A stretch of 57,476 nucleotides of DNA from Nitrososphaera sp. (GCF_013388945.1 NZ_JACAEH010000017.1:1-57476), one strand, 5' to 3'; positions 28,935 through 32,135 are shown, counted from the first letter of the stretch. Notes: generated by a model not told the origin, from the letters alone. Numbers and translations: made by a program.

Positions 28935-29066
28935 TCACAGGTGTATTGCCCCAAAGTGCTTTGCCCTGTTCTTGTGCCTCTCCAGCGCCTCTTTTGACGT
29001 AAACGCCATCTTGCATTCCTTGCAGGTAAATCCGTCCTTGTCGGTTTTTGAAAATGGTGATTTCAT
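28935..29066 (-). CDS. Small C2H2 zinc-finger protein
   Basis: This 43-residue protein is almost entirely one C2H2 finger, FTCKECKMAFTSKEALERHK, followed by NRAKH. The ligands are C-x2-C-x12-H-x5-H. Such mini zinc-finger proteins are common in ammonia-oxidizing archaea and probably bind DNA or proteins. An upstream ATG at 29081 would add five residues. I prefer 29066 because the TATA box (TCTTTATAG, 29088-29097) predicts a transcription start right there. An inverted-repeat operator at 29102-29116 abuts that TATA box and links this gene to the regulon of the next three promoters. Confidence 0.75.
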   Translation of the reverse strand: MKSPFSKTDKDGFTCKECKMAFTSKEALERHKNRAKHFGAIHL

Positions 29067-29101
29067 CGGTTCCAGTTTCATGGCGCCGCTATAAAGAGTA
29101 A

Positions 29102-29116
29102 CTTAACATAGTTCAC
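29102..29116. promoter_or_regulatory. TTAAC-N3-GTT operator, site D (zinc-finger promoter)
   Basis: CTTAAC-ATA-GTTCAC lies immediately upstream of the TATA/BRE region of the C2H2 gene. It matches sites at 29215, 30542 and 30801 in half-site sequence, three-base spacer and position. Confidence 0.5.
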
Positions 29117-29214
29117 TGGCAAAAAGGCCCCGCCCAAAAGCTGGTTGCATGGGTTGGCGGGCAGGGACCTTCTTGCGACGCTGACTTGGATGCAGCAATT
29201 TTGCTATTAAGCGT

Positions 29215-29233
29215 GGCTTAACCTTGTTCACCC
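29215..29233. promoter_or_regulatory. TTAAC-N3-GTT operator, site A (winged-helix promoter)
   Basis: GGCTTAAC-CTT-GTTCACCC lies about 14 bases before the TATA box (GGTTATATGG, 29246-29255) of the winged-helix gene at 29290. Fifteen bases of it recur exactly, in reverse complement, at site C upstream of the zinc-ribbon gene. Confidence 0.55.
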
Positions 29234-29289
29234 ATTCGGACTAGAGGTTATATGGAACGGCAGGCTACTGCAGCGCAACTGCACATTCA

Positions 29290-29631
29290 ATGTCAGGCTC
29301 CCCAGGCTCGTACCGCGACAGGATCTACATCGTCAAGGACATCATCATCAAGCTCCTGGAATACGGCGAGCTGAACCAGACGGCGCTTGTGAGCTTTTGC
29401 GGCCTCAACCTGACAAAGCACAAGCGCATACTCGACGAGCTTGAGGCAAACGGCCTCATAAGCAGGACCGAGAGGGTCGTGGGCAAGAGGACCATAACCG
29501 TCTACGGCCAGACGCAGAAGGGCGTGGAGTTTTGCAGGAACATCCTTGAGCCGTACGAGCGCATGTTCCCGCGCAAAAAAGAGGCCGACGAGTCCGGGAC
29601 CAATATAGGGATGCTACTGCTCCTGGTCTAG
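29290..29631 (+). CDS. Winged-helix regulator
   Basis: A 113-residue protein with a thaumarchaeal winged-helix domain over most of its length (IYIVKDIIIKLLEYGELNQT, LTKHKRILDELEANGLISRT). A wing with GKRTITVYGQTQKGVEFC and a basic C-terminal stretch follow. It resembles the small single-domain wHTH proteins typical of this phylum. Its promoter carries one copy of the inverted-repeat operator shared by three neighbouring promoters, so it may control itself and that group. The 3' end overlaps the convergent membrane-protein gene by 18 bases. Confidence 0.75.
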   Translation: MSGSPGSYRDRIYIVKDIIIKLLEYGELNQTALVSFCGLNLTKHKRILDELEANGLISRTERVVGKRTITVYGQTQKGVEFCRNILEPYERMFPRKKEADESGTNIGMLLLLV

Positions 29632-30003
29632 CCCAAACTGCGAGGCTATCTTTTTGTCCATCTCTTCTTTTCCCCTAGCGTAGCTGTCGTACCTTTCCTT
29701 CCAGCTGCTCATCGAGCGGTACTGCCGTACGCCTGTCGCAAGCCAGATGGCAGAGATGACAATGACGGCGCCAAGGAGCACGCTCAGCACGACGCCAAAC
29801 TCGTTTTCTATCTCCAGCACGGCAAAGAATGAAGGGTGTACCAGAAGATATGCAGAAAGGCCTATTGCAAGCGGAGCGAGGATTATTGCCGAAAGCGAAA
29901 CGCCGAGCAAGAGCTTGCGGATGTGCTGTACGTGCTCAATAAAGCTGTCCAAGAGTGACAGGACGTCGTCAGCCAACGGGCGGTCCGGGCTTTCTGCGCT
30001 CAT
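29614..30003 (-). CDS. Two-helix membrane hypothetical protein
   Basis: A protein of about 129 residues has an N-terminal soluble helix (LADDVLSLLDSFIEHVQHIR) and two membrane helices (LLLGVSLSAIILAPLAIGLSA and VVLSVLLGAVIVISAIWLA). A charged cytoplasmic tail follows (SSWKERYDSYARGKEEMDKK). It follows the blue-copper gene without a gap. A GTG at 30024 overlapping its stop (GTGA) or the ATG at 30003 could be the start. Co-expression with the copper protein is likely, but the role is unknown. Confidence 0.6.
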   Translation of the reverse strand: MSAESPDRPLADDVLSLLDSFIEHVQHIRKLLLGVSLSAIILAPLAIGLSAYLLVHPSFFAVLEIENEFGVVLSVLLGAVIVISAIWLATGVRQYRSMSSWKERYDSYARGKEEMDKKIASQFGLDQEQ

Positions 30004-30020
30004 TTGCTTATTTCCCACCC

Positions 30021-30509
30021 TCACTCTATTATTATTTCGCCTTTCATCTCGGGGTGGATGCTGCAGTAGTACTGGAACGTGCCGGCCTTGTCCGTGACAA
30101 AGCTGACGGTCTGCGACTCGAAATAGCCCAAGTCCCTAGTGTGCACGTTGAACTCGTCTATGTTCAGGTTGTGCGCCGAATGCGTGTCATAGTCCTCGTT
30201 GATAAAGTGCATAGTCTGCAGCCCGCCCTTGCTCATCGTATAGGTGGGGTTGACGATTGCGCCCGAGGTGTTCCTGATGCCTTTTGCCCCTCCAGGCGAC
30301 GTGGTGACGTAAAGGTACCCGCCCTTGCTCGTGTGCGTGGCCTTTAAAAAGTGGTTGAGAGGCGGGCTCAGAACCGGCGCGGTGCCGTTTGCAGGAATCG
30401 TCGCATTAATGCTGAAATATCCTATGGTTGCGACCACCGCCGCCAAGGCTGCATAAGCAATCGCCTTGTTCCTAGTCATGCGGTACGGCCGCTTTTCCTT
30501 CTTCTTCAC
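30021..30509 (-). CDS. Membrane-anchored blue-copper (cupredoxin) protein
   Basis: This 162-residue protein has an N-terminal anchor helix (about 15-33) and an extracytoplasmic cupredoxin domain. Type 1 copper ligands are visible as His in HSAHN (about 113) and Cys, His and Met in CSIHPEMKG (149, 152, 155). Such small copper proteins replace cytochrome c as electron carriers in ammonia-oxidizing archaea. The GTG at 30509 lies about 27 bases after CCTAAATAG, giving a leaderless transcript. A perfect nine-base inverted repeat sits directly upstream of that TATA box, marking regulated expression. The downstream membrane gene is probably in the same operon. Confidence 0.85.
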   Translation of the reverse strand: MKKKEKRPYRMTRNKAIAYAALAAVVATIGYFSINATIPANGTAPVLSPPLNHFLKATHTSKGGYLYVTTSPGGAKGIRNTSGAIVNPTYTMSKGGLQTMHFINEDYDTHSAHNLNIDEFNVHTRDLGYFESQTVSFVTDKAGTFQYYCSIHPEMKGEIIIE

Positions 30510-30541
30510 ATCCTTGACTTTGCATCTTGACTATTTAGGCA

Positions 30542-30562
30542 ATGATTAACATGGTTAATCAT
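30542..30562. promoter_or_regulatory. Perfect inverted-repeat operator, site B (blue-copper promoter)
   Basis: ATGATTAAC-ATG-GTTAATCAT has two nine-base arms with no mismatch. It lies directly upstream of the TATA box of the cupredoxin gene and overlaps the stop of the zinc-ribbon gene. It is the most symmetrical copy of the local TTAAC-N3-GTT motif. Confidence 0.65.
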
Positions 30563-30768
30563 GTCAGCGTGGAAAATCGCAATATCGTGCCCTGCCGGCC
30601 GCAGTCAAACGTATAGGTTTCATCAGAAAAGATGGGCATGTGCTCCACAAGCGTGCTGCCGCAGGCAAGGCACCTGTCGACGGAGGGCGTGGAAAAGACG
30701 GAGGCGCACCAGAAGCATTCCCTGCAAATAATAAAGTGCGCCTTTTGAGTCCCGCGCTCGCAGGTCAT
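30559..30768 (-). CDS. Small zinc-ribbon protein
   Basis: A 69-residue protein with several CxxC pairs: ICRECFWC near residue 14-21, CLACG near 33 and one further Cys near 56. They suit a zinc ribbon plus an extra metal site. It is found between two operator copies, with its own operator (30801-30819) immediately before a TATA-like TCTTAATTAG. That TATA is 27 bases before the ATG. The function is unknown; a role in transcription or metal sensing is the usual guess for such ribbons. Confidence 0.65.
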   Translation of the reverse strand: MTCERGTQKAHFIICRECFWCASVFSTPSVDRCLACGSTLVEHMPIFSDETYTFDCGRQGTILRFSTLT

Positions 30769-30800
30769 GGCTGCTCTTGCATTTCTGCACTAATTAAGAT

Positions 30801-30819
30801 GGATTAACAAGGTTAAGCC
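30801..30819. promoter_or_regulatory. TTAAC-N3-GTT operator, site C (zinc-ribbon promoter)
   Basis: GGATTAAC-AAG-GTTAAGCC, with arms that match except at one position, lies just upstream of the TATA box of the zinc-ribbon gene. It shares 15 bases with site A in inverted orientation. Confidence 0.6.
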
Positions 30820-30851: not shown

Positions 30852-32135
30852 TCAGCTTTCGGGAGTCTTTTGCTTCTCTATCACTTCGGGCGTGGTCTTT
30901 TGTATCCTGACAGAAAGAGGCTGGCTCCTGCCGGTCTCTTCCACTATTATCACAACGTTTCCTATCTCCAGCCTGTCGCCCTTTCTTGGGATCCTCTGCA
31001 GCATGTGGTGCAAGAGCCCGCTCAGGGTGGAGTAGTCCTTGTCCTTTGGCAGTCTGATATTGAGCGCCTCGTTGATGTCGTCTATTTCCACGTCGCCCCG
31101 GGTCACGACGGTCTGCTTGTCCAGCTTCTTTATCTGCTGCGCCTCCACGTCGGTCTCGTCGGCTATCTCGCCCACGAGCTCTTCTATGATGTCCTCAAGC
31201 GAGACCACCCCCTCGGTGCTGCCGTGCTCGTCCACCACTATTGCCATGTGGATGTGCCTGCCCTGGAACTCCTTCATCAGCTTGTTTATGCCCATCTCCA
31301 TCGAGACAAAGAGCGGCTTTCTTGCGACGTCTTTTAGCATCATGTAGGAGGTCTTGGTCTCGACTGCCTTTAGCACGTCGCGGATGTGCACAATCCCGAC
31401 AATGTTGTCCTTGGTGCCCTCGATTATAGGTATTCGCGAATAGCCGCTCTCGTTTATCACCGGGAGCGCGTCCCAGAGAAGCATGCGCGCATCCAGCGTG
31501 AACATCTTGTTGCGCGGCGTCATGATTGCGCGCACCTTGGTGTCGTGGAATTCAAGCACGTCCTCTATCATGTCCTTCTCTGACTTTTGCAGTGCCTTCT
31601 CCTCGACGCCCACGTCTATGACCGCCCTGACCTCCTCCTCGCTGATGGGCTGGGGCTTGCCGTCGCTTCCAGTCATCTGGAATATTCCCTTTGTCGCGCC
31701 CTCAAGCGCCCTGACAATAGGATAGAGCGCATACTGCATGCCAAGTATCACCCGGGAAAACCGCAGCGCGATGGGCTCGGCGTGGATGTTGCAGTACGCC
31801 TTTGGCGTTATCTCGCCAAAAACAAGGAGTATCATGGTCATGGCGCCGGTGGCAATGCCGAGCCCGACGCTGCCAAAGAAGCCGATGGTCAGGTCGGTGG
31901 CAACCGACGCGGCTGCCACGTTAACAAGGTTGTTGCCGAGAAGGAGCGTGACTAGCATCCTGCTCGGGTTGGACTTTAGCTTCTGGACCGACTCGACGCC
32001 CTTTCTTCCCTCCTTGACCATGCGCCTCAGCTGGCCCTTGCCTATCGAAATGAGCGCTACTTCCATCCCGCTGAAGAAAGCCGAGAGGGCCACTAGGCCT
32101 CCAAGAAGCGGCAGGGCGATTAAGGGATCCAACAT
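30852..32135 (-). CDS. CNNM/CorC-type transporter (hemolysin-like, DUF21-CBS-CorC_HlyC)
   Basis: This 427-residue protein has the full three-part plan. A DUF21 membrane domain (about 1-190) contains FFSGMEVALISIGKGQLRRM and TLLLGNNLVNVAAASVATDL. A CBS pair (about 205-330) contains IMTPRNKMFTLDARM and VDEHGSTEGVVSLEDIIEEL. A C-terminal CorC_HlyC domain (about 345-415) contains INEALNIRLPKDKDYSTLSG. Relatives export or handle Mg2+ and Co2+, with the CBS pair sensing ATP-Mg. The old name hemolysin is misleading. It stands as a single gene. Confidence 0.9.
   Translation of the reverse strand: MLDPLIALPLLGGLVALSAFFSGMEVALISIGKGQLRRMVKEGRKGVESVQKLKSNPSRMLVTLLLGNNLVNVAAASVATDLTIGFFGSVGLGIATGAMTMILLVFGEITPKAYCNIHAEPIALRFSRVILGMQYALYPIVRALEGATKGIFQMTGSDGKPQPISEEEVRAVIDVGVEEKALQKSEKDMIEDVLEFHDTKVRAIMTPRNKMFTLDARMLLWDALPVINESGYSRIPIIEGTKDNIVGIVHIRDVLKAVETKTSYMMLKDVARKPLFVSMEMGINKLMKEFQGRHIHMAIVVDEHGSTEGVVSLEDIIEELVGEIADETDVEAQQIKKLDKQTVVTRGDVEIDDINEALNIRLPKDKDYSTLSGLLHHMLQRIPRKGDRLEIGNVVIIVEETGRSQPLSVRIQKTTPEVIEKQKTPES

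Follow-up and report, generated by a model that had tools for sequence, protein, structure and literature searches.

Three described regulators come close to the archaeal locus reported here. In Pyrococcus, the winged-helix dimer TrmB binds an 11-base-pair (bp) palindrome with a 3-bp spacer, TACT-N3-AGTA, near the B recognition element (BRE) and TATA box, and the sign of its effect depends on position (PMC4158304). OxsR of Haloferax volcanii, a TrmB-like and thiol-based protein, is a small single winged-helix protein with one conserved cysteine, and the genes it activates have a palindrome upstream of BRE/TATA (PMC9426492), while the membrane-bound one-component activators ArnR and ArnR1 of Sulfolobus link a helix-turn-helix (HTH) regulator to two transmembrane helices and act on promoters with inverted-repeat boxes (PMC6396743). 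We analysed a 57,476-nucleotide stretch (hereafter the window) of a Nitrososphaera-like ammonia-oxidizing archaeon (genome G000, 1.99 Mb in 31 contigs), in which four promoters around a winged-helix regulator gene share a TTAAC-N3-GTTAA palindrome. The genes between 28935 and 30816 encode, in order, a C2H2 zinc-finger protein, the winged-helix regulator, a two-pass membrane protein, a cupredoxin and a zinc-ribbon protein, all on the minus strand except the regulator.

Bacterial extracytoplasmic function (ECF) sigma/anti-sigma pairs and ToxR-type signalling combine a cytoplasmic DNA-binding protein with a small membrane protein bearing an outer loop. The likeness to our locus, where a winged-helix factor would act on archaeal TATA/BRE promoters, is functional, and we claim no homology. 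TrmB resembles the window regulator in the respects given above, dimerisation being predicted here, but the latter falls below the TrmB family cutoff (PF01978; 12.9 bits vs. 25.6), has no sugar-binding domain and is associated with another half-site. OxsR has in common with it the single winged-helix domain and a conserved cysteine but likewise differs in Pfam family; its C24 is modelled at the dimer interface, its motif is CG-rich and the accessible parts of its report describe no membrane partner (PMC9426492), whereas Cys37 of the window regulator lies beside the recognition helix and not on the N-terminal helix. ArnR carries HTH and transmembrane segments in one protein (PMC6396743), whereas here they are encoded by two genes, and of 184 winged-helix and 147 membrane-partner open reading frames (ORFs), none matched the profiles of both. 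The predicted model of the regulator has a MarR-like fold, with MarR proteins as best fold matches, and resembles Sso10a-2 and MarR-type proteins (PDB 4hw0, 3cjn, 7el3), but identity is about 18–24% and the MarR family cutoff is missed (PF01047; 22.8 bits vs. 24.6); the assignment above cutoff is HTH_45 (PF14947; 29.6 bits, cutoff 25.5, residues 8–85). Searches of an open-access library turned up no publication on the regulator family, on its operator or on such a regulon.

Four operators and their candidate binder

The four sites (Table 1) have the common form TTAAC-N3-GTTAA, two of them perfect and two with one mismatch (GTTCA), and they are likely operators of the winged-helix protein (29290–29631), through which it would control its own gene and its neighbours. 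All lie upstream of TATA boxes; the gap is 17 nucleotides (nt) at the winged-helix gene and 6–8 nt at the other three. A sequence-only reading of the window had placed such sites at these four promoters, and all were present, 1–4 bases from the starts it gave and with TATA boxes where it described them. The nine-base perfect palindrome that it reported is real, with arms of nine bases at 30542–30562, and two sites do share identical bases as it claimed (29218 and 30804), though 18 and not 15.

The exact 11-mer TTAACNNNGTT was enriched in the window (7 vs. 1.15 expected; 0 of 100 shuffles reached 7), as was the 13-mer with at most one mismatch (4 vs. 0.85 expected; 2 of 100 shuffles); the 11-mer with one mismatch allowed showed no enrichment there (29 vs. 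29.5 expected). Rather than being equally frequent in random DNA, which the sequence-only reading had named as speaking against a shared operator, the motif is scarce in the genome: a count of the 13-mer with up to one mismatch gave 21 sites in 1.99 Mb, compared to 58 for a reversed control pattern. At this frequency, a cluster of four in 1.7 kb is very unlikely by chance (P ~ 2 × 10−9; ~ 2 × 10−6 corrected for the number of windows). Two pattern searches gave 13 exact palindromes in the genome, of which, by crude gene calls, one is wholly coding and two overlap gene ends; the binomial on their placement assumed 85% coding DNA. A fifth exact 11-mer in the window, at 31921 within the CNNM coding sequence, is probably due to chance.

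The motif was also conserved upstream of orthologues, a check that the sequence-only reading had proposed. Within the family, cupredoxin orthologues had a site within 170 bp in 13 of 16 genomes outside one genus (g6), with TATA spacing nearly unchanged, compared to 0 of 6 within it (hypergeometric P about 0.001). All three C2H2 orthologues in the genus had the operator upstream, as exact palindromes in the two counterparts (L267, L268), and the C2H2 gene of G042 is separated from the closest winged-helix gene by about 350 kb or more, so that the site goes with the gene and not with the neighbourhood. The exact TTAACNNNGTTAA stood upstream of winged-helix orthologues in G033, G027, G043, G065, G001 and G029, and an operator before the regulator gene was kept in several genera and absent in most Nitrosotalea and in g6. 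Sites also stood upstream of the syntenic zinc-ribbon genes of G029 and G033, which adjoin winged-helix genes.

Two further apparent targets recurred between genomes. One, a divergent membrane-protein locus, is shared by G000 (C3:15745) and G042 (524105), the other, a small zinc-ribbon locus, by G026 (2489325) and G042 (2179383). Sites also lay near the gene of a small conserved protein (IGYIAADDEESIIVLASR...) in G027 and G033, and in G042 a one-mismatch site lies near a relative of this gene, which shares the site with a universal-stress-protein gene. Two sites at C15 of G000 (50429 and 50715; L001), near genes for a zinc ribbon and a trypsin-like protease, persist at the locus that holds a second winged-helix gene in G026 and G042 but not in G000. 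TTAAC-N3-GTTAA was also found beside cdc6/orc1 between inverted origin-recognition-box-like repeats (CCAGTGGAAAC...GGGGTC; G000:C31:213303 or L003:2004, L076:1506, L089:1484). Given this position, we excluded by eye the cdc6-adjacent TTAACNNNGTTAA of G000, G026 and G042 from the regulon, and it is probably part of a replication origin and unrelated to the regulon.

Association with winged-helix genes identifies the likely binder. In G000, G026, G027 and G042, 34 of 67 exact palindromes of the forms TTAACNNNGTTAA or [GC]TAACNNNGTTA[GC] lay within 1.5 kb of 18 winged-helix genes, a region covering 0.6% of the DNA (0.39 expected; P ~ 1 × 10−57, treating sites as independent), and a reversed palindrome of the same composition in G026 was near a winged-helix gene at 0 of 47 sites. 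We also scanned all 256 half-sites at 3-bp spacing across 80 named winged-helix loci (L-numbers), fetched by protein similarity alone and including Nitrosopumilus-type, Nitrosocaldus and Bathyarchaeota, and TAAC ranked first (69 vs. 6.8 expected, z = 23). A de novo search of the named regulator promoters, Nitrosotalea included, for palindromes with 6-bp arms gave no alternative operator. The shared operator and autoregulation proposed in the sequence-only reading are supported, as is its choice of the winged-helix protein as probable controller.

Two other explanations of the sites were weighed against these results. A chance cluster or a general promoter element would agree with the loose 11-mer being at chance level in the window, but the motif is rare in the genome, kept upstream of orthologues and concentrated at winged-helix loci; since orthologue conservation and winged-helix association were both found, this explanation is effectively refuted and retains hardly any probability. 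Alternatively, the operators could be real but bound by the zinc ribbon, the C2H2 protein or an unlinked regulator, with the winged-helix gene a mere target. In several genomes the targets include zinc-ribbon and C2H2 genes, whose products could bind nucleic acid. However, winged-helix paralogues elsewhere come with palindrome variants of their own and mostly have neither a zinc-ribbon nor a C2H2 gene beside them, and the C2H2 protein occurs in only 3 of 18 genus genomes, compared to winged-helix homologues in 60 of 70 family genomes. The zinc ribbon was rejected as an unlikely binder, as its paralogues have no site unless near a winged-helix gene. Another binder thus appears improbable, and the winged-helix protein very probably recognises the palindrome before its own and its neighbours' genes.

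A winged-helix and membrane-protein module

A homologue of the two-pass membrane protein adjoins the winged-helix gene in 74 of the 80 named loci, which makes these two proteins the constant parts of a module. The sequence-only reading had named the membrane protein solely as the cupredoxin's partner. Neighbour clustering over 98 loci recovered the membrane partner at 84, a cupredoxin at 39 and PepSY-like proteins at 16. The partner has conserved helices at both ends and two hydrophobic segments, and both ends are predicted to be cytoplasmic from the hydrophobicity pattern and the lysine and arginine content of the end segments. Its outer segment varies from a few residues to about 100. In one subfamily (L167:3462-4115, L172:2232-2912), a segment of ~100 residues replaces the short loop and is a candidate sensing domain. 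The partner matched no Pfam family above cutoff, and a structure search with its model (mean predicted local distance difference test, pLDDT, 77) gave no significant match.

Among paralogues, the operator varied together with the regulator. Helices of the form GLNL(T/K)KH pair with TTAAC...GTTAA upstream of their own gene, GLNN(V/A)KH with GTAAC...GTTAC, and GLNIVKH with CTAAC...GTTAC or GTAAC...GTTAC, such that the subfamily-specific outer base tracks residues 41–42 of the recognition helix, which spans residues 41–53 in the AlphaFold monomer model (mean pLDDT 82). In g6, where the helix is changed to GLNFKKHS, the operator is absent at the examined regulator genes as well as at the cupredoxin genes. 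One locus with an asymmetric palindrome, L130, was mislabelled in the outer-base tree analysis. Some GTAAC-type promoters with wider spacing (L170, L171, L173, L176, L180) contain a second degenerate element, roughly GTGAACAA-GGTTAAA, which overlaps the TATA box ~22 bp downstream of the palindrome.

Four genomes examined closely carry up to six winged-helix modules each. In paralogous modules the membrane partner usually has its own operator, located between the regulator stop and the partner start, and the neighbours include PepSY-like exported proteins (below the Pfam cutoff), small membrane proteins and other cupredoxins. In G026 and G042, the membrane partner is replaced by a zinc ribbon at the second T-class locus. 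The constant pairing of regulator and membrane protein suggests an undescribed family of signalling switches; the regulon proposed earlier was right in outline, and this wider family is the more interesting object. Our analysis gives the regulator family, operator, target set and membrane partner across Nitrososphaeraceae, Nitrosotalea, Nitrosopumilus-type archaea, Nitrosocaldus and some Bathyarchaeota, and predicts residues setting operator specificity that can be tested in vitro without genetics.

Proposed mechanism, signal and sign of regulation

The winged-helix protein very probably binds each palindrome as a dimer, although the mode of dimerisation is uncertain because its C-terminal part is short. 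Its targets would be its own gene, the operon of cupredoxin and membrane protein, the zinc-ribbon gene, the C2H2 gene and a few genes elsewhere, and it would represent one of several paralogous switches, most consisting of a sensor-less regulator and an adjacent two-pass membrane protein with subfamily-specific palindromes. The regulator has no sensor or ligand-binding domain, and Cys37, which directly precedes the recognition helix, is kept in 150 of 150 homologues, so the signal may come via the membrane protein, Cys37 or both. The likeliest scheme is that the membrane protein, perhaps together with the anchored cupredoxin, detects an extracytoplasmic condition and controls the winged-helix protein; redox or metal input may reach the latter in addition through Cys37. 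We tentatively propose that ammonia-oxidizing archaea carry an undescribed split membrane signalling module, up to six per genome, in which a cysteine-bearing, sensor-less winged-helix factor is controlled by a two-pass protein with a cupredoxin or PepSY-like outer sensor, and in which a one-base-pair operator code, read through residues 41–42, keeps paralogous modules separate. If the membrane partner does control the regulator, the module would be an archaeal counterpart of split membrane signalling.

The sequence-only reading had centred the regulon on electron-transfer copper chemistry, and a copper-responsive regulon serving electron transfer would fit with the cupredoxin being the most frequent third gene and with cupredoxins beside paralogous modules in G026, G027 and G042. 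The window cupredoxin has the type-1 ligand set (C149-S-I-H152-P-E-M155, with conserved His101 and His123). The type-1 cysteine is, however, replaced by serine in 27 of 52 orthologous cupredoxins (YYS..HPEM), all Nitrosotalea-type or related, in which any copper binding would be of a different kind. These Ser-type proteins (L188–L244) also have aspartate for a conserved asparagine. Other modules neighbour PepSY-like and unrelated membrane proteins, and by consensus comparison the motifs published for copper limitation in Nitrososphaera viennensis, TTCSGSMTTTGWACYANT or RATTTAAABATAGATTTAAATAATAAS, are unrelated to TTAAC-N3-GTTAA (PMC7785015). Copper as the defining signal is weakened by these differing motifs and by the cysteine-to-serine change, and we consider a copper regulon doubtful. 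As to the sign of regulation, the TATA box follows the palindrome by 5–7 nt in 29 of 63 promoters (P ~ 2 × 10−13), and a second group near 17–20 nt, not significant alone, lies ~12 bp or about one helical turn further. Sites placed upstream of BRE/TATA accompany activation by TrmB-type regulators (PMC4158304) and by OxsR (PMC9426492), and given this position at near-fixed spacing, activation through transcription factor B (TFB) and TATA-binding protein (TBP) is slightly favoured. A repressor that blocks recruitment of TFB/TBP or RNA polymerase and is released by the signal is nonetheless a serious contender, to which we give somewhat less than even weight: a dimer occupying the 13-bp palindrome would extend to the BRE, which is within 6–8 nt, some GTAAC-type promoters have the second element over TATA, and in P. 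furiosus TrmB acts as a repressor from a palindrome located at BRE/TATA (PMC4158304). Against repression, the palindromes lie upstream of BRE/TATA and not over it, and the two spacing groups are separated by roughly one helical turn, though the first alone is statistically clear.

Several observations count against the winged-helix regulon and its membrane control as proposed here. The sites nearest the window's winged-helix gene, those of that gene and the C2H2 gene, are the two with one mismatch each, and G041, which has two winged-helix genes, had none of its 6 exact palindromes near them. Elsewhere, a number of exact sites have no module nearby, and a recurrent one probably belongs to a replication origin. 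Many Nitrosotalea orthologues keep the helix GLNLKKHK without an exact palindrome upstream of the regulator, and the cupredoxin site is degenerate or absent in Nitrosotalea-type genomes. The tree places the split between T-class and G/C-class at essentially one event, such that the match of outer base and helix is strong as anatomy and weak as independent statistics. Sensing by the membrane protein is suggested by gene neighbourhood and topology.

Coordinates of the locus and minor features

Table 1 Genes, operators and TATA-like elements between 28935 and 30816, in window coordinates.
Feature	Position	Strand	Remarks
C2H2 zinc-finger protein, small, 48 residues	28935..29081	-	Pfam zf-C2H2 25.2 bits, at cutoff; orthologues in 2 other genus genomes
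TATA-like TTTATAGC, C2H2 promoter	29088..29095	-	sequence; 7 nt from operator 1
Operator 1, TTAACATAGTTCA, one mismatch	29103..29115		promoter of minus-strand C2H2 gene
Operator 2, TTAACCTTGTTCA, one mismatch	29218..29230		winged-helix gene promoter, candidate autoregulatory site
TATA-like GGTTATATGG, winged-helix promoter	29246..29255	+	sequence; 17 nt from operator 2
Winged-helix regulator, 113 residues, Pfam HTH_45	29290..29631	+	recognition helix residues 41-53, invariant Cys37, C-terminal signature PYExxFPR
Two-pass membrane partner, 129 residues	29614..30003	-	N-terminal helix, first transmembrane helix, short outer loop, second transmembrane helix, C-terminal helix
Membrane-anchored cupredoxin (blue-copper type)	30021..30509	-	first gene in operon with membrane partner; Pfam Cupredoxin_1 27.2 bits, cutoff 27
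TATA-like TAAATAGT, cupredoxin promoter	30530..30537	-	sequence; 8 nt from operator 3
Operator 3, perfect 9+3+9 palindrome ATGATTAAC-ATG-GTTAATCAT	30542..30562; core 30546-30558, TTAACATGGTTAA		cupredoxin promoter
Zinc-ribbon protein, 69 residues	30559..30768	-	weak similarity to ribosomal S27e; counterparts beside winged-helix genes in G029, G033, G026, G042
TATA-like TTAATTAG, zinc-ribbon promoter	30790..30797	-	sequence; 6 nt from operator 4
Operator 4, TTAACAAGGTTAA, exact	30804..30816		zinc-ribbon gene promoter

On the minus strand at 29125–29215, a 14-residue ORF and a GC-rich stretch followed by T5 are faced by a TATA-like gcttaatagc ~6 nt from operator 2; this feature is possibly a small RNA, or nothing. 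The positions of the TATA boxes predict leaderless transcripts for the C2H2 gene, starting at the second ATG (~29066), and for the zinc-ribbon gene, starting at the ATG at 30768.

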